From contig DWZQ01000001.1 in assembly GCA_019117485.1 (NCBI GenBank), positions 1 to 64,000 on the forward strand: a stretch of DNA of 64,000 bases, in the 5' to 3' direction. The DNA is from Candidatus Agathobaculum intestinipullorum (GTDB taxonomy: Bacteria > Bacillota > Clostridia > Oscillospirales > Butyricicoccaceae). How positions within the stretch are numbered: the first letter of the stretch is position 1; each line of letters starts with the position of its first letter. The notes under the pieces were generated by a model that saw only the letters and a program-made list of their open reading frames with translations, was not told the DNA's origin and did not search any database. Positions 14-51,759 of the stretch are shown one piece after another. Position numbers and translations under genes: made by a program.

Positions 14-129
<116 letters not shown>

Positions 130-132
130 ACT

Positions 133-914: not shown

Positions 915-1700
915 ATGGCAAACGGACATATACATGGTGCCCATTCAATTGATCGGCTGGCCTATGAGTCCGGAATGCGCACGTGGAATCCGGTGTTCAA
1001 GACCGTGCTGGCGGTTGGCACACTCGTGCTGTGTCTTGCCGCAGATCGTCCGATGGTGTCAACGGCGGTTATCCTTGTGCTGGCGGCGCTGCAAAGGGGC
1101 AAAGGGAAATTACCGCTGCGCGATTATCTTGGATTGATGCTTGTGCCGCTGACCTTTCTACTGCTGGGCGGTGTGGCTGTTGCGTGCGACATTGCTTTGA
1201 CACCTGTATGCGACTGGAATCTGCGCCTTCCGTGGTTTTACCTATGCGTCAGCGCGGAGAGCATCCGGTTTGCTGTGGAACTAGTACTCAAGGCGCTGGG
1301 CGCTGTCAGCGCGATGTACCTGCTGGCACTGACGACCACAGCCTGTGAGCTGGTGGATGTGCTGCGCCGCGCGCATCTGCCGTCGTTGCTGTGCGAGTTG
1401 ATGTATTTGATTTATCGCTTTGTGTTTGTGCTGCTGGACATGTATGGGCGTATGCGGCAGGCCGCAGGCGCACGGCTGGGTTGGAAGGATTTCCGCACCT
1501 CATGTCGCTCGTTCGGAGGTATAGCGGGTAATTTGTTCGTGCTGTCGCTGCGCCGGTCGCGCGTGTATGCCGACGCGATGGCTGCGCGCGGTTATGACGG
1601 GGATTTGCGCTTTCTGGAGGAGGAAAAGCCCGTGCGTGCGGCGCAGATTATATGGACGGGGCTGTTCTGGACGGCGCTTTTGGTGCTTGCCATATGCTAA
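915..1700 (+). CDS. cbiQ: Cobalt ECF transporter, transmembrane T component CbiQ
   Basis: CbiQ (261 aa) is the membrane coupling subunit linking the substrate-binding CbiM to the CbiO ATPase in cobalt uptake. The N-terminus has the typical His-containing segment and the IDRLAYES motif. Four to five hydrophobic segments follow. A coupling region near residues 195-220 contains SLRRSRVYADAMAARGYDG, which matches the A-R-G helices that contact the ATPase. The start at 915 follows AAGGGGGT (901-908). cbiO begins 16 bases downstream. Unusually, this gene lies upstream of the cobalamin riboswitch rather than under it. Confidence 0.9.
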   Translation: MANGHIHGAHSIDRLAYESGMRTWNPVFKTVLAVGTLVLCLAADRPMVSTAVILVLAALQRGKGKLPLRDYLGLMLVPLTFLLLGGVAVACDIALTPVCDWNLRLPWFYLCVSAESIRFAVELVLKALGAVSAMYLLALTTTACELVDVLRRAHLPSLLCELMYLIYRFVFVLLDMYGRMRQAAGARLGWKDFRTSCRSFGGIAGNLFVLSLRRSRVYADAMAARGYDGDLRFLEEEKPVRAAQIIWTGLFWTALLVLAIC

Positions 1701-2582: not shown

Positions 2583-2617
2583 GAAACTGCTTCTTCTGGC
2601 ATACTATGCCGGATACC

Positions 2618-2790
2618 AAAAGGTGCCTGCCATTTTCTCCGGCAGGAGAATAGGGAAAGAGGTGCAAATCCTCTGCGGTCCCGCCGCTGTAAGGGAAGAG
2701 CGCGCTATCGAATACGTCACTGAACTGGAAGGTTCGGGAAGACCGACTGCGTGCAAGGACGCCCAAGCCAGAATACCTGCCTTTTGGGAT
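2618..2790 (+). promoter_or_regulatory. Cobalamin (AdoCbl) riboswitch
   Basis: The conserved elements occur in order: GGTGCC (2622), the A-rich segment AATAGGGAA, GGTGCAAATCCTCTGC, the B12-box-like CCCGCCGCTGT, CACTGAACTGGAAGG, and the closing GCCAGAATACCTGCC (to 2781). The terminal AGGTGCCTGCC and ACCTGCC segments close the P1 region. It should repress the downstream operon when adenosylcobalamin is plentiful. The product of the operon is the ligand, so the logic is end-product feedback. Confidence 0.93.
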
Positions 2791-2831
2791 GGAAGCGCAT
2801 ACGGCTACGAGCGATGGCCGGTTGTGCGTTA

Positions 2832-26434: not shown

Positions 26435-26450
26435 GCAACTTATTTTATAG

Positions 26451-26794
26451 CATGACTGGTGCGTAAGCCGGGTTCTGTCGTGGACGGTCATCTATCTGGG
26501 ACGCACGTTGCCGCGCGCCTCAAGCCGCCAGTCGGGACGGACGGGCCGCCCATAGTCCCTGTCGGCGTTGCTGCGGATAGAGTTTACAGGCCCCCCGTGT
26601 CACCACGGGGCGCGGTGAGCTCTTACCTCGCCTTTCCACCCTTACCGCGTCGGCGCTTGACGCATCGGCGCGGCGGTATATCTCTGTTGCACTATTCCTA
26701 GGGTCGCCCCCGGCGGATGTTATCCGTTATCCTTGCCCTGTGCAGCCCGGACTTTCCTCATGCCATTGGCACGCGACCGTCAGCACCAGTCATG
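26451..26794 (-). ncRNA. rnpB: RNase P RNA component
   Basis: Read on the minus strand, the sequence contains GAGGAAAGTCCGGGCTGCAC near the 5' end, TAAGGGTGGAAAGGCGAGGTAAGAGCTCACCG in the middle (only its core GGTAAGAGCTCACCG is cited as diagnostic), and AGAACCCGGCTTA at the 3' end. The ends, CATGACTGGTGC and GCACCAGTCATG, pair to form P1. About 344 nt, a normal length for a bacterial type A-like RNA. It is the ribozyme that trims tRNA 5' leaders. Confidence 0.94.
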
Positions 26795-28269: not shown

Positions 28270-28304
28270 AAAAGGCTTCCGATGGTTCGGAAGCCTTTTT
28301 CTTA
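28270..28304. terminator. Bidirectional terminator between murD and the MATE gene
   Basis: AAAGGCTTCCGA (28271-28282) and TCGGAAGCCTTT (28287-28298) form a 12-bp stem with a four-base loop. T runs follow on both strands, so it can end both convergent genes. Confidence 0.88.
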
Positions 28305-29621
28305 TGCGCGCTTGTCCAAGCGGAAAACGTGGCATACCGATACAAGCGTCAGGATAGCTGTTACGGTCTCAACTGTTGGGAAGGCAGCCCAGACGCCAGT
28401 CACTCCGAACAGCGCGGCCAGCGCCAGCAGGATGGGCGGCACAGCCGCAACACCGCGCACCAATGAGATCGCAAAGCCCATCCCGGCACGACTGGAGGCG
28501 CTGAAAAATGCGGCTGTGGTCAGGTTGAAACCGGCGCACCAGAAACCGAGAAAGTAAACGCGCAGACCGGACACAGCGTAGCTGTGCAGCACTGGGTCGC
28601 CAGCGCTGTTGAACGATGCAGCGATCGGGTCGGCAAAGAAAAAAACCAGCACATATAATGCGGTTGCAATTGTCAGTGCGGTCGTAAGTCCATATCGGTA
28701 CAGGCGGCGTAATGCGGCATGGTCGCCCATGCCGCTGCTGTGGCTGATGAGCGGCTGCATTCCTGTACTCAAGCCTTGATAAATGGCAATGGCGACCAGC
28801 GCGAGGTTGGCAACAATACCGTAAGCGGCTACGCCGGTATTGCCTGTAAGGTGCAGCAGGATCAGGTTGAACAGAAGCAGCACCACACCGGAGGACAGTT
28901 CACCGATCAGCGAGGACAGGCCGGGCGCGCATAAGCCGGGAAGTGCGCGCGGTGCAAACCGGCTGCGTCGCAGATGGAAGCCGCGTCCTGCTCCCCGGAG
29001 GTGCCCGGATAGTAGCAGAATGCTGATGATGGGGGAGACACCGGTCGCAAGTGCCGCGCCAAACATGCCCATACCGAGCGGGAAGATGAACAGGTAGTCG
29101 AATACAATATTGGATAGGCTGCCGACTACCATGCCACGCATCGCGCGGCCGGGCGCGCCATCATTGCGGACAAAGGCAAGCAGCACATTGTTCATCACGA
29201 AGAAAGGTGAAAAGCTCAGAAGCGTGCGCAGATAGGTGCGGGTGAGGGGAAAGGTTTCGGCATCTGCGCCGAGTAGCCGAGCAAGCGGCGCGGCGGCAAT
29301 CACACCCAGCAGCAGGAATACGAGGCCGACAGCAAGGCCGAGGTACACTGCTTGTGTAAATGCGCGGTCGGCGCCTTGCTGGTCGCCCTGCGCACGGCAG
29401 ACAGTGAAGTGTGTGGCCGCGCCAACGCCAATCATCAGGCCGAGGCCGTTGAGCAGGTTGAACGCTGGAATGGCAATGTTGAGCGCGGCAAGACCGGTTG
29501 CGCCCGCGCCACGGGCAACAAAAAACGTGTCGGCAAGGATATAGCACGAAATACCGACCATACCAAGTATATTCAGCGACGCATAGCGGCCAAAGGTGCG
29601 TAAGGTTGCGGTTTGTTCCAT
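28302..29621 (-). CDS. MATE-family efflux transporter, MepA-like
   Basis: This 439-residue protein has about twelve membrane segments and belongs to the MATE exporters, which use ion gradients to remove cationic drugs or metabolites. DTFFVARGAGATGLAALNIAIP near 27-48 is the usual MepA/NorM-type first-repeat motif, and the second half starts near 230. AGGAGG lies six bases before the ATG. It has its own promoter and a structured leader with a terminator just ahead of the ribosome site. If the leader is a guanidine sensor, guanidinium is a likely substrate; the protein sequence alone cannot tell. Confidence 0.88.
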   Translation of the reverse strand: MEQTATLRTFGRYASLNILGMVGISCYILADTFFVARGAGATGLAALNIAIPAFNLLNGLGLMIGVGAATHFTVCRAQGDQQGADRAFTQAVYLGLAVGLVFLLLGVIAAAPLARLLGADAETFPLTRTYLRTLLSFSPFFVMNNVLLAFVRNDGAPGRAMRGMVVGSLSNIVFDYLFIFPLGMGMFGAALATGVSPIISILLLSGHLRGAGRGFHLRRSRFAPRALPGLCAPGLSSLIGELSSGVVLLLFNLILLHLTGNTGVAAYGIVANLALVAIAIYQGLSTGMQPLISHSSGMGDHAALRRLYRYGLTTALTIATALYVLVFFFADPIAASFNSAGDPVLHSYAVSGLRVYFLGFWCAGFNLTTAAFFSASSRAGMGFAISLVRGVAAVPPILLALAALFGVTGVWAAFPTVETVTAILTLVSVCHVFRLDKRA

Positions 29622-29639
29622 GGGATTCCTCCTAAAATG

Positions 29640-29693
29640 AAAAAGGGCGCCAGTCCGTCCATCTTCTAAGGCCTACGATGGAAGGAATGACGC
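29640..29693 (-). terminator. Terminator hairpin in the MATE leader
   Basis: On the minus strand a 17-position stem (29693-29677 with 29663-29647, 15 paired) closes a 13-base loop, GTAGGCCTTAGAA. CC and TTTTT (29644-29640) follow. It ends only seven bases before the AGGAGG of the gene, so it would block expression unless prevented. Confidence 0.82.
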
Positions 29694-29739
29694 ACAAATT
29701 TTTATCCGGCGATAAAAATTCGGTCTGATTCGATTAACC
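29640..29739 (-). promoter_or_regulatory. Candidate guanidine-IV (mepA-type) riboswitch
   Basis: The leader starts about seven bases after the -10 box. It has a perfect ten-base-pair hairpin, AATTTTTATC / GATAAAAATT, with loop GCCG (29720-29697), followed at once by the terminator hairpin whose loop holds GGCC. The loops can pair through GCC and GGC. From memory, the guanidine-IV class lies upstream of MATE genes and uses loop-loop contact with the terminator. The class assignment is inference; the structured leader itself is directly visible. Confidence 0.5.
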
Positions 29740-29745
29740 GACGAT

Positions 29746-29774
29746 AGTATAGCACGGTGTTCTCTGCTTGTCAA
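29746..29774 (-). promoter_or_regulatory. Promoter of the MATE gene
   Basis: On the minus strand TTGACA (29774-29769) and TATACT (29751-29746) are separated by 17 bases. Confidence 0.85.
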
Positions 29775-29780
29775 GCGAAA

Positions 29781-29816
29781 GCAAACCGCCCCGTTTCCTA
29801 AAACGGGGCGGTTTGG
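29781..29816 (-). terminator. Terminator of the S-layer-type protein gene
   Basis: AAACCGCCCCGTTT and AAACGGGGCGGTTT pair over 14 bases with a CCTA loop. On the minus strand TTTGCTTT follows. It begins seven bases after the stop of the gene at 29821. Confidence 0.75.
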
Positions 29817-29820
29817 CTTA

Positions 29821-32800
29821 TTAGAACAGCGCCAGGATTTTGGCGATCTCGCCGCGGGTGATCTTGCCCAGCGGCTGCAAGGTATTGTCCTCATAGCCGC
29901 CGATGATACCGGCGGAAACACATACCTTGACCTGATCGAGCGCCCACGAGGGTACAGCGGATGCATCCGAGAAGGGGAGCGCCTTAGCGGCATAGCCGCG
30001 CGGCAGGCAGCGGCCAATGACCGTCATTACCTCGGCACGGGTCATATCTGCGTCCGGGTTGAAGTACAGCTTGCCGCCGTCGCTCGAGCCCTGCATGATG
30101 CCCGCTGTCGACACGGCATAAACCGCGCCGCGTGCCCAGCTGGGGATGGACGCGTCGTCGGCAAAGTCCATTGCACCAGTGTAGGAGGTATCAAGGCCAA
30201 GCAGTCGTGCAACCGTGACTGCGAACTCCTTGCGGGTCAGGTTGCGGTTGGGGCTGAAGTAAGTCTTGCCATCGCTGCCTGTTTCGCCCTGCATGATGCC
30301 GCGTGCGCTGAGCTGGGCGGCATAGCCGCGCGCCCAGTGGTTGGCAGTATCGGCGAAGGCATTGGTGGCGCTGCCCGCTGTCACCGTAGCGGATACACGC
30401 GTGCGGTTGCCGGCATCGTCCGATACATCCACGGTAATGCTGTGCGTGCCGGCAGCCAGTGCGCCGGTTGTTACGGTCAGTGACGAGCCGCTCATGCTGG
30501 CCGTGCCAGATACGATTTTACCATCGACCTTGACCGTGATATTGGATGCACGCGCCGGGTACTTGCCGCTTTCCATCGTAGCCTTGCCGGTCAGGGTAGC
30601 CGACACGCCTGCGTCAACCGTGAGCGATGTGCTGTTCAGCGACACGGCCGGTGCATCGGTATTCGTGACCGCGTGGTCGGCCGAAACGACGATTTGGTCG
30701 AGATAGAGTGCGCTGTCTGCTGCACCCGCGGCACCGCGGTCAAACCGCAGGCCGGTCAGCGTCTGTGCGCCGGAGGGGATAGCAGCGGTCAGCTGCTTCC
30801 AGCTGTCAGTGGTCGAGGCAGACAGTGGAGCGGTCAGTTCGGTGCCCTCTGCATCGGTGAACACAGCCGTCAGTGTGCCATGCGCGCCTGTGCCGCGTGC
30901 CCACAGCGTCAGATAAGCCATGTCAGATACGTCGGTCGGTTTTACAGAAACCGTCGCGGCCATCACCTTGGAACCGTCGTAAGCGGCCTTCAGCGAGCCG
31001 CTGCCGCGGGCGACTTCGGTATAGTCGGTCACACGCGACAGGGTAACGCCCTCGGTCGCGGTGCAGCCGTCCGTGCCGGATTCAAAGCCTGCAACCGTCT
31101 GCGCGTCCTGCGGATCGCCCATGCCGACGTTAACAGGGATAGATTTGCTGGTGTTGCCATACGAGCAGGTGAGTGTGCCGCTGGCCATCTTGTCGCCCGC
31201 AGTGAACATGCCGGCATCGCTGACCGAGCCGATATCGCCGCTGACGCTCCAATTAAACGAGGTGTCAACCGAAGCCATCTTCTGGCCGAGGTGGTAGGCA
31301 ATGCCATCCACGTCAATGCTCTGGCCCGGCTTGACCGAGATTGCGCTGATATCCTTATCGTCGCTTGTCAGACCGATGGATTGGATATCACCCGTGATGC
31401 AAAGGGACATCGATCCGCTGACCGCACCGTTAGAGCCGGTGACCGTTGCGGTGCCGGTGGACATGCCCGCCGTAAAGGTCTGGCCGTCTACCGTACCCAT
31501 TTCACCGTCAACCGAGAAGGTCAGGTCGGTGGGTGCTTCCGCCGGGCCATAGGAGCTATCCGCACCCTTGATGGAGAACCACGTCGATGCGCCGGGCATC
31601 AGATAGCGGTAACTCGGCGTAAGTACCGCATGTGCCGTTACACCGTCAGCCGGGACGTTGTTGATAAAGAAGATATAGTTCGCGCATGCACGCTGCGAGC
31701 CGTCCGACGGGCTGGAAATCAGCGAAGCAGTCTGCTCACCCGGCTTGCGCAGCGCCATTGCGGACGAGCCGCCGCCGTCCAGACAGATCGCACGCACACA
31801 GCCTAAGCTGACCAGCTCATTGCCCAGTTCGGCCGCAGTCATGCCGACGCTATGCGAGGATTGGTTGCCGTCGACCTCATACAGCACAACGGTGCCGTCG
31901 GCCTTGACGCCGATCGCGCTGCGTGCGCGTTGCGAGGACGCGCCGTCAATGCCGGAGGTCGTTACCGAGCTGTTGTCGATCAGCAGCTTGCCGCCGACCG
32001 CGTATTCCACATCGGCCCAGTTGGTATCATTGGCGCCGACCCAGAGCGATACTTCTTCGCCGACCGGGAAATCCACCCATGAGGGGACATTGGCGCCGTC
32101 CGACTTGGTCAGGATCATCTGATTGTCCGCAATGGCAAGCGGGGTGTTGCCCGTGCCCTTGTCGACAACCTTGAGTTTGACCGTCTGGTTGACCTGTACA
32201 GGGCTATTATCCAGCCGTTCAAGTACAATATAGCTGCCGTTGGCCGAGAAATGTGTGGAGTCGTCATAGTTACGGTCGAGCAGATAAGCGCCCGCCGTGG
32301 TGCGCGTCTTGTTAAAGTACGAAACCGTCACCTTGCCGGATGCGCCGGTGATTGTCATGTTCATCGTCGGGCGGCCCATCACGGCGGTGCCGTCCGCCTT
32401 GAAGCCGACTGCGTACTGCCACGCGTCGGATGAGATCAGTTCGCCTTCGTCAATGACAAGGCCGATCGGGATGCCGCTGGACATGACGAAAAAGTCCGCG
32501 TTCGTGCCGCCGATGACGGTTTTGCCTTGGCCTTCCAGATACTTAACGGCATTCGTAATGGTCGCTTGGCTGCCGTAGAGCTGGGAGTCTGCATACACCA
32601 TAATGGGGGAAACGCCCGTATTGGGCTGGTAGGTCAGGACGTTGGCACGCTGCACGCCAGCGCTGTTTTTCCCCTCGGTACGGGTGTATTGCAGCCCTTG
32701 ACCGACTGGATAGGAATAGGAAAATGCGTTGTTGAGCGCTGCGCCGGCTGCGGCCGACAGCAGCTGCGCTGCCGCGAGCGACAATGCCAGTACACGACAG

Positions 32801-32823
32801 GATCGTTTGATAAAATGTTTCAT
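29821..32823 (-). CDS. Secreted multidomain protein with phosphodiester glycosidase and SLH domains
   Basis: This 1000-residue protein has a signal peptide (residues 1-30). A phosphodiester glycosidase (NAGPA-like) domain covers about 60-385, with GGTNADFFVMSSGIPIGLVI and the catalytic-type DGGGSSAMALR. Ig-like segments follow, then a carbohydrate-binding-like module (starting AGFESGTDGCTATEGV) and another Ig-like segment. The last ~185 residues are three SLH repeats (FADTANHWARGYAAQL, FADDASIPSWARGAVYAV, FSDASAVPSWALDQVKV), which tether proteins to cell-wall polymers. The start at 32823 has a plausible signal peptide and GAGG upstream; an earlier in-frame ATG lacks both. A role in processing wall or surface glycans is inferred. 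Confidence 0.83.
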   Translation of the reverse strand: MKHFIKRSCRVLALSLAAAQLLSAAAGAALNNAFSYSYPVGQGLQYTRTEGKNSAGVQRANVLTYQPNTGVSPIMVYADSQLYGSQATITNAVKYLEGQGKTVIGGTNADFFVMSSGIPIGLVIDEGELISSDAWQYAVGFKADGTAVMGRPTMNMTITGASGKVTVSYFNKTRTTAGAYLLDRNYDDSTHFSANGSYIVLERLDNSPVQVNQTVKLKVVDKGTGNTPLAIADNQMILTKSDGANVPSWVDFPVGEEVSLWVGANDTNWADVEYAVGGKLLIDNSSVTTSGIDGASSQRARSAIGVKADGTVVLYEVDGNQSSHSVGMTAAELGNELVSLGCVRAICLDGGGSSAMALRKPGEQTASLISSPSDGSQRACANYIFFINNVPADGVTAHAVLTPSYRYLMPGASTWFSIKGADSSYGPAEAPTDLTFSVDGEMGTVDGQTFTAGMSTGTATVTGSNGAVSGSMSLCITGDIQSIGLTSDDKDISAISVKPGQSIDVDGIAYHLGQKMASVDTSFNWSVSGDIGSVSDAGMFTAGDKMASGTLTCSYGNTSKSIPVNVGMGDPQDAQTVAGFESGTDGCTATEGVTLSRVTDYTEVARGSGSLKAAYDGSKVMAATVSVKPTDVSDMAYLTLWARGTGAHGTLTAVFTDAEGTELTAPLSASTTDSWKQLTAAIPSGAQTLTGLRFDRGAAGAADSALYLDQIVVSADHAVTNTDAPAVSLNSTSLTVDAGVSATLTGKATMESGKYPARASNITVKVDGKIVSGTASMSGSSLTVTTGALAAGTHSITVDVSDDAGNRTRVSATVTAGSATNAFADTANHWARGYAAQLSARGIMQGETGSDGKTYFSPNRNLTRKEFAVTVARLLGLDTSYTGAMDFADDASIPSWARGAVYAVSTAGIMQGSSDGGKLYFNPDADMTRAEVMTVIGRCLPRGYAAKALPFSDASAVPSWALDQVKVCVSAGIIGGYEDNTLQPLGKITRGEIAKILALF

Positions 32824-32927
32824 GATTTGCCTCGTTTTCTGGGATCGTGGGATACCAATGCCGCGCCGCGCTCCCACTTTGCGCGCCGCGTTTCCTGCTC
32901 TAAACAATATGTTTAGAACAAGTGAGT

Positions 32928-40054: not shown

Positions 40055-40345
40055 AAAAAAGCCTTTCATCCACAAAGAGGGACGAAAGACAAACGGTTCC
40101 GCGGTACCACCCACATTCGGCACAAAAATGCCGCACTTTTTTCAGATACAGAATATATCCTATCCCGGTAACGGAGGAAGTCCGTCGGCGCCTACTAAAA
40201 ATGTTTTTTCAGCGCCGCAGCTCGAGAGGGAACTTCATTGTACCGGCGCCTGCGTCCGTTTCCAGTCATGCCGGACACTCCCTGAAAGCCGCACTTGGAA
40301 CAATTACTTTCCTCTTTCATCGCTTTGTGCAATATTTGTTCTTTA
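40055..40345 (-). promoter_or_regulatory. T-box leader, specifier UUC (phenylalanine)
   Basis: On the minus strand the T-box sequence GGGTGGTACCGCGGAA is at 40112-40097. Stem I carries AGTAA on its 5' side and GAAG-TTC-CCTCTC-GAGC on its 3' side. TTC (40232-40230) sits directly before the CCTCTC strand (40229-40224), in the specifier position. An intrinsic terminator follows. Uncharged tRNA-Phe should permit transcription of the operon, which contains pheA. The T-box is certain; the specifier reading is by alignment to the general pattern. Confidence 0.88.
40057..40088 (-). terminator. T-box terminator
   Basis: On the minus strand CTTTCGTCC pairs with GGATGAAAGG and CTTTTTTG follows. It is the stop signal opposed by the antiterminator that contains the T-box sequence. 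Confidence 0.8.
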
Positions 40346-51557: not shown

Positions 51558-51740
51558 CCAAACAGGATAGCTCTCCACCGGCATTTCTGCTGATGACAGA
51601 CGCAGGGATATTCTCCGGAACGTCCAGCCCGGGCTTGCCGCAACAAGAACCGGCTTCGGCGGAAGACCCTTTCTCGGCTGCTTAACGGGTTTACGGACCC
51701 TCCCAGACGATACTGATGAAAACCGCGCCTCTATCTTTGA
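51558..51740 (-). promoter_or_regulatory. lysC leader type: Lysine riboswitch (L-box)
   Basis: On the minus strand the conserved parts run in order: AGATAGAGGCGCGG at the 5' end, CATCAGTA, GGGAGGGTCCGTAAACCCG, AGCAGCCGAGAAAGGGTCT, CCGCCGAAGCCGG, and the closing GTGGAGAGCTATCCTG. These match the five-way-junction lysine aptamer. With the terminator at 51486-51514 it should shut off asd-dapA-dapB when lysine is high. Confidence 0.92.
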
Positions 51741-51759
51741 AACTGTACTTTTCGTTCTT

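Follow-up and report, generated by a model that had tools for sequence, protein, structure and literature searches.

The leader of a MATE efflux transporter gene in Candidatus Agathobaculum intestinipullorum is, with a probability of about 0.9, a guanidine-IV riboswitch (mepA or GGAM-1 motif) that acts as a transcriptional ON switch for this gene. The guanidine-IV identity is supported by the structure of the leader, by the covarying conservation of that structure, by the classes of genes that follow related leaders, and by homology to the Lactococcus RNA that has been tested experimentally. The leader is located in the first 64,000 nucleotides of contig DWZQ01000001.1 (assembly GCA_019117485.1), and this whole stretch of analyzed DNA is referred to below as the window.

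Architecture of the MATE leader

The leader occupies positions 29774-29622 on the minus strand and runs from a promoter through a hairpin (P1), a terminator hairpin (P2), a U-run, and a Shine-Dalgarno sequence to the MATE gene. The U-run and the Shine-Dalgarno sequence were read directly from the sequence, P1 from the sequence and the computed fold, and the P2 pairs were taken from the computed fold:

29815-29782, same strand as the MATE gene: terminator-like site after the upstream gene, just before the promoter
29746..29774, minus strand: sigma-70 type promoter, with TTGACA at 29774-29769, a 17-nt spacer, and TATACT at 29751-29746
29697..29720, minus strand: P1 hairpin, AATTTTTATC-GCCG-GATAAAAATT, with 10 perfect pairs and the loop GCCG at 29710-29707
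29710-29708, minus strand: GCC, the P1 (5') side of the kissing pair
29647..29693, minus strand: P2 hairpin, which is the terminator stem, with 15 pairs and two 1x1 mismatches
29664..29676, minus strand: P2 loop of 13 nt, GUAGGCCUUAGAA
29673-29671, minus strand: GGC, the P2 (3') side of the kissing pair
29639..29647, minus strand: U-run after the terminator stem, CCCTTTTTC
29628..29633, minus strand: Shine-Dalgarno sequence AGGAGG
28302..29621, minus strand: MATE efflux transporter gene, 439 aa, ATG at 29621, Pfam PF01554 (E 1.2e-37)

These elements bear out the layout described in the first-pass annotation. The consensus promoter proposed there carries 11 of the 12 consensus letters, with TG before the second hexamer, and promoter-like sites within positions 29400-30000 number 2, versus a mean of 0.3 in shuffled sequences. 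The perfect ten-base-pair hairpin with the loop GCCG is present at 29720-29697, where the computed fold lengthens the stem to 12 pairs, and what had been counted as a terminator stem of 17 positions resolves into the 15 pairs and two 1x1 mismatches of P2 (29693-29647). The hairpins are separated by a linker of 3 nt, their loops are able to pair through GCC and GGC as had been suggested, and the terminator indeed stands just ahead of the Shine-Dalgarno sequence and the MATE gene, with the U-run at 29647-29639 followed by AGGAGG at 29633-29628 and the ATG at 29621. A trait of guanidine-IV RNAs, two hairpins of which the 3' one is an intrinsic terminator, is thus present in the window leader. The leader folds at -35.9 kcal/mol, a better value than that of any of 200 dinucleotide shuffles (mean -24.4 kcal/mol, z of -3.7).

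The transporter was previously described as a MepA-like MATE protein. Its membership in the MATE family holds by the match to PF01554, but the name MepA fits loosely, as the protein scores under the NCBIfam cut-off for all nine families that it matches, MepA included. The gene looks like a transcription unit of its own (monocistronic), because the preceding gene, which is encoded on that strand too, is followed by the terminator-like site at 29815-29782. Immediately upstream of this unit lies an open reading frame of 1028 aa (29821-32907, minus strand) that has weak NCBIfam matches only, namely to a NEAT-domain protein and to a Ca2+-stabilised adhesin repeat.

Related leaders and covariation

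Matches to the MATE protein at E-values up to 1e-40 were found in 61 of the 87 genomes of the window's family. Examination of 50 MATE loci yielded 49 leaders, as L031 is part of the gene in L037, where the leader is found. A two-loop pattern matches 33 of these 49 leaders, including L051, which is the variant RNA treated in a later section. For 36 MATE genes, the identity to that of the window is 41% or more; 35 of their leaders were read (that of genome G055 being excluded), and the motif is present in 31. Neither the two-loop motif nor a whole-motif match to the covariance model R1 (see below) was found in L017, L020, L021, and L025, the leaders of close MATE orthologues, and the other 12 motif-less leaders (L038-L049) precede genes for MATE proteins at most 34% identical to that of the window. 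The leaders L017, L020, L021, and L025 do contain hairpins and, judged by eye, L020 may carry an additional hairpin atop the second one.

Nine MATE leaders, with the window and its 66-85% identical relatives excluded, were used to build R1. In the window's own genome, R1 has a single match, which is the leader studied here (E 1.2e-6). At E-values up to 1e-3, the model matches 75 of 391 genomes of the class, and a run over 100 loci produced 97 matches, with two in L110 and zero in L017, L020, L021, and L025.

R1 contains both stems and not the kissing pair. Accordingly, the counts of stem pairs lean toward the stems of R1, to which the alignment was fitted, and the kissing pair is unfitted. When both stems are taken together with the kissing pair, 94.5% of the cells pair, a value that falls to 34-45% in slid structures, and 15 of the 18 pairs vary on both sides; the observed values were reached by none of 500 shuffles. 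Within the stems, both-side changes occur among the related leaders in 7 of the 8 pairs of P1 and in all 7 pairs counted in the inner part of P2.

For the kissing pair, the 97 rows counted include the nine training rows of R1 and reduce to 96 distinct rows, of which two, gapped at the kissing pair, were set aside. In the remaining 94 rows, which are related rather than independent and in which 24 of the G-C rows stem from searching the window's own family for the MATE protein, the first letter of the P1 side (GCC or ACC) and the last letter of the P2 side (GGC or GGU) combine as A-U in 56, as G-C in 36, as G-U in 2, and in no case as an unpaired combination. These rows show no variation at the two remaining kissing pairs. 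Covariation of the two loops in related leaders, the absence of which had been named as an argument against the assignment, was therefore found. At least 2 changes between A-U and G-C are needed on a quick tree built for 46 MATE proteins, with 43 rows counted after omission of both G-U rows and of one row with a gap. Among 13 later class matches inspected by eye, one kissing pair is broken in L127, L131 has a G-U, and the P1 of L130 is odd.

Related leaders show both hairpins and the pairing between their loops again, with compensatory changes, and the structure of the leader is therefore more than a product of chance. A plain attenuator or constitutive terminator, in which the upstream hairpin would be incidental and no ligand would be sensed, has next to no probability: although hairpins plus a U-run alone would look alike, the loop nucleotides of the related leaders are conserved above the stems, and the loop-loop pairing covaries across many genomes.

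Genes downstream of the motif

Apart from the window, the R1 scan of the class gave 80 places, 67 of which yielded 68 matches (two in L110) and 13 of which were run later. The downstream genes were labeled through similarity to nine seed proteins, and a label was obtained for 64 of the 68 and 13 of the 13 matches, or 77 of the 81 outside the window. These 81 matches precede genes for PnuC (46), MATE (22), SMR/SugE (5), and PNPOx/Nim-like proteins (4), with 4 having no label, one at a contig end (L053) and three without a similar gene (L068, L098, and L100). Pfam and NCBIfam support the labels on the examples scanned. In the accessible part of a published description of guanidine-IV RNAs (Lenkeit et al. 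2020, PMC7736828), sugE is the commonest associated gene, and the other transporter classes named are PnuC and MATE. The same three gene classes, SugE, PnuC, and MATE, are recovered downstream of R1 matches. SMR and Fpg genes were sought in the window's own genome, and none were found.

R1 matches were also observed before PNPOx-family genes, in L051 (1929-1981, minus strand), L101, L115, L126, L131, and L217. The PNPOx-family gene in L051 is nearest to Nim 5-nitroimidazole reductases, below the NCBIfam cut-off.

The scan with Rfam covariance models that the first-pass annotation had put forward as a check came out negative: no riboswitch match was found for the window leader in Rfam 15 at E-values up to 10. 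Elsewhere in the window, Rfam identified the following RNAs:

14-130, plus strand: 5S rRNA
2604-2798, plus strand: cobalamin riboswitch
26449-26792, minus strand: RNase P RNA class A
40075-40329, minus strand: T-box leader
51560-51741, minus strand: lysine riboswitch

Rfam 15 likewise gave nothing relevant for two sets of related loci, 13 scanned at E-values up to 5 and 10 scanned at E-values up to 1. The 23 loci missed in this way include sugE, pnuC, and MATE leaders, with 3 SMR loci among them. Because the same library is also blank for these related loci, the lack of an Rfam match says little about the leader, which is most likely a real guanidine-IV riboswitch left unannotated by the copy of Rfam 15 used; that copy cannot rule out guanidine-IV RNAs.

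Relationship to the tested Lactococcus RNA

Lactococcus was reached with an L. lactis beta-phosphoglucomutase query against named genomes, the query sequence coming from a PDB search (entry 1lvh, which we take to be the L. lactis protein). L. cremoris was used for the comparison because L. lactis is absent from the best 80 of 251 relatives. Over 20 named genomes, R1 matched 5 and missed 15, the latter including five further Lactococcus species. In Lactococcus cremoris, the sole R1 match precedes sugE.

The tested L. lactis RNA, 95 Lla, binds guanidine with a K_D of 210 uM (published affinities for guanidine-IV span about 64-250 uM), guanidine relieves its termination, and the nucleotides named in the accessible part of the report are G62, U63, G66, U67, A71, and G72 (PMC7736828). 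When G62 is set on the G of GTAGGT in the L. cremoris leader, all six of these nucleotides fit. The stem of this leader is followed by 7 T, and its distance to ATG+31 is 147 nt, as in the published excerpt, on the assumption that the first genomic base of 95 Lla is where the 147-nt template begins. Finding the L. cremoris sugE leader with the published letters means that a model built from MATE leaders recognizes a close relative of a guanidine-binding RNA. Through this relative, which fits the published L. lactis letters and lengths, the window leader appears to be homologous to the tested guanidine-IV RNA. With the L. cremoris sugE leader and the published numbering as guides, the equivalent positions in the window are:

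29676, minus strand: equivalent of G62
29675, minus strand: equivalent of U63
29672, minus strand: equivalent of G66
29671, minus strand: equivalent of U67 (C here)
29667, minus strand: equivalent of A71
29666, minus strand: equivalent of G72

The initial assignment to the guanidine-IV class agrees with the covarying loop-loop pair, with the reach of R1 to the L. cremoris sugE leader, and with the published gene classes.

A riboswitch of the Gd4v type would have the same two-hairpin kissing fold tuned to another ligand. MATE-like genes are found under both motifs, and the border between the two is hard to draw (Lenkeit et al. 2022, PMC9788692, consulted in excerpts); the window leader shares with Gd4v the overall fold and a MATE gene, MATE genes being among the Gd4v targets. 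We nevertheless consider this identity highly improbable. Two strict marks, D1 and D2, are given for telling the motifs apart. The hairpin atop P2, D2, which in the excerpts is always present in the Gd4v subset (PMC9788692), is absent from the window leader, whose 13-nt loop has no internal pairs, and the Gs tested in guanidine-IV are kept. D1 is always G in the guanidine-IV subset, and the window has G at the equivalents of G62, G66, and G72, so D1 is G here as well if it is among these positions. Furthermore, Gd4v never precedes sugE according to the same excerpts (PMC9788692), yet the matches of R1 include sugE leaders. The Gd4v identity was set aside on the open 13-nt P2 loop and the three retained G positions.

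The G-C type of kissing pair

Compared with guanidine-IV RNAs as described in the accessible part of PMC7736828, the window leader shares the two hairpins, the loop-loop pair, a 3' hairpin that is the terminator, the loop letters G62, U63, G66, A71, and G72, and a MATE gene downstream, and differs in its G-C kissing pair, which is A-U in the L. cremoris relative, and in the C at the equivalent of U67. The kissing loops are GCC/GGC in the window versus ACC/GGU in the L. cremoris RNA, that is, both letters of one pair are changed: the P2 loop keeps the equivalents of G62, G66, and G72 and has C at U67, a change that is offset by a G in the P1 loop. U67 is reported to be 97% conserved, and U67A abolished binding (PMC7736828, in the same part). 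With C in this position and G as its partner, the window is without one of the listed letters, and the kissing pair is kept.

The G-C type accounts for 13 of the 68 class matches, a share that may be inflated among R1 matches because 6 of the 9 leaders in the training set of R1 are of this type. The class MATE leaders comprise 8 of the A-U type, 8 of the G-C type, 2 with G-U, and 1 without loop 1. PnuC leaders are of the A-U type in 39 of 40 cases, and 2 of 6 later PnuC leaders, examined by eye, are of the G-C type (L120 and L125). Leaders of the G-C type also lie directly before SMR/sugE genes, in L084, in L086, and, in Companilactobacillus kimchiensis, in L218; the best NCBIfam match of the proteins in L086 and L218 is SugE, below the cut-off, and the same is true of the L. 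cremoris protein.

We take the G-C subtype to sense guanidinium too, possibly with a different threshold. That the leader belongs to a G-C (GCC/GGC) branch of guanidine-IV with an affinity or a ligand unlike that of the tested A-U type is unlikely. Very unlikely, in our estimate, is a G-C (GCC/GGC) subgroup derived from guanidine-IV that responds to another ligand or at a clearly shifted threshold. Such a subgroup could be argued for from the A-U type (ACC/GGU) of the tested Lactococcus RNA, as judged by the L. cremoris relative, from the strong conservation of U67, and from the 13 G-C leaders among the class matches. However, leaders of the G-C type are also found directly before sugE (L084, L086, and L218), and both types occur on one MATE tree, with at least 2 changes between them. 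Present before both MATE and sugE genes, the G-C subtype is a naturally occurring replacement of both letters in one kissing pair, and this natural change between G-C and A-U is usable for probing how loop-loop strength sets the response of guanidine-IV RNAs.

A variant RNA with a separate terminator and tandem elements

A variant RNA was observed in which P1, with the same GCCG loop, is followed by a short hairpin with a loop that begins RUAGGCC; this loop and the 3' part of the hairpin double as the 5' arm of a terminator of its own, so that hairpin and terminator exclude each other. The variant RNA was found in the following places:

L224 1501-1566, minus strand: variant RNA, MATE downstream (by eye)
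L225 1501-1567, plus strand: variant RNA, MATE downstream (by eye)
L226 1501-1568, minus strand: variant RNA, MATE downstream (by eye)
L241 1501-1567, minus strand: variant RNA, MATE downstream (by eye)
L222 near 1500, plus strand: variant RNA, unidentified gene downstream
L050 just before the MATE gene, minus strand: variant RNA, MATE by Pfam
L051 just before the MATE gene, minus strand: variant RNA, MATE by eye

In 6 of the 7 cases, the variant RNA thus precedes a MATE gene, which was recognized by eye in 5 of the 6. In an alignment of 6 of the 7 sequences, each of the alternative structures has 4 pairs changed on both sides; the pairing exceeds that in all 500 shuffles, and the pair types are no more than in the shuffles. 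The arrangement is the usual mutually exclusive layout of riboswitches, whereas in guanidine-IV the aptamer hairpin is itself the terminator. No mention of this layout was found in the part of the guanidine-IV literature surveyed, and it may be known.

A side model, R2, matched 18 of 391 class genomes at E-values up to 0.01; in its first six places, L223 (the element of L222), L224, L225, and L226 were accepted, and L227 and L228 were rejected as variant RNA. Another side model, R3, matched 2 of 398 genomes of the phylum, with L241 accepted and L242 rejected, and a sequence pattern for the variant RNA matched 1 of 391 genomes, L222. Tandem elements were observed as well. In L050 (1427-1485, minus strand) and L241 (1678-1734, minus strand), a single MATE gene is preceded by an R1 match and, directly after that match, by the variant RNA, and in L110 two R1 matches precede the MATE gene (1538-1601 and 1281-1343, minus strand), the second being weak (20.1 bits) and without loop 1.

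Proposed mechanism and implications

As described in the accessible parts of three reports, guanidine-IV RNAs are ON switches in which guanidinium stabilizes the kissing loops and prevents the terminator stem from closing (PMC7736828, PMC12186494, and PMC11611296). In the C. botulinum guanidine-IV RNA, analyzed by single-molecule FRET, the kissing loop formed with guanidinium hinders the full terminator stem (PMC11611296, in part), and the window leader is likened to this RNA by mechanism and not by sequence. By analogy with these RNAs, guanidinium would be the ligand of the window leader and would cause its antitermination. In the proposed scheme, P2 would close fully beside the U-run when no ligand is bound, and RNA polymerase would terminate. 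With guanidinium present, GCC of the P1 loop would kiss GGC of the P2 loop, the ligand would be held by the conserved nucleotides of the loops, and the rigid kissed hairpins with their 3-nt linker would block the outer terminator pairs, so that the MATE exporter would be made. The short linker suits the ON-switch model, because locked loops would force the outer P2 pairs to stretch. The same analogy suggests that guanidinium may be a substrate of this MATE transporter.

The switch most likely turns the pump on as guanidine, a toxic small molecule, accumulates, and a MATE transporter that has so far been uncharacterized gains guanidinium as its likely inducer and substrate. If the G-C branch does differ from the tested A-U type, the inducer of the MATE exporters in this lineage would be guanidine at another level or a compound related to it.
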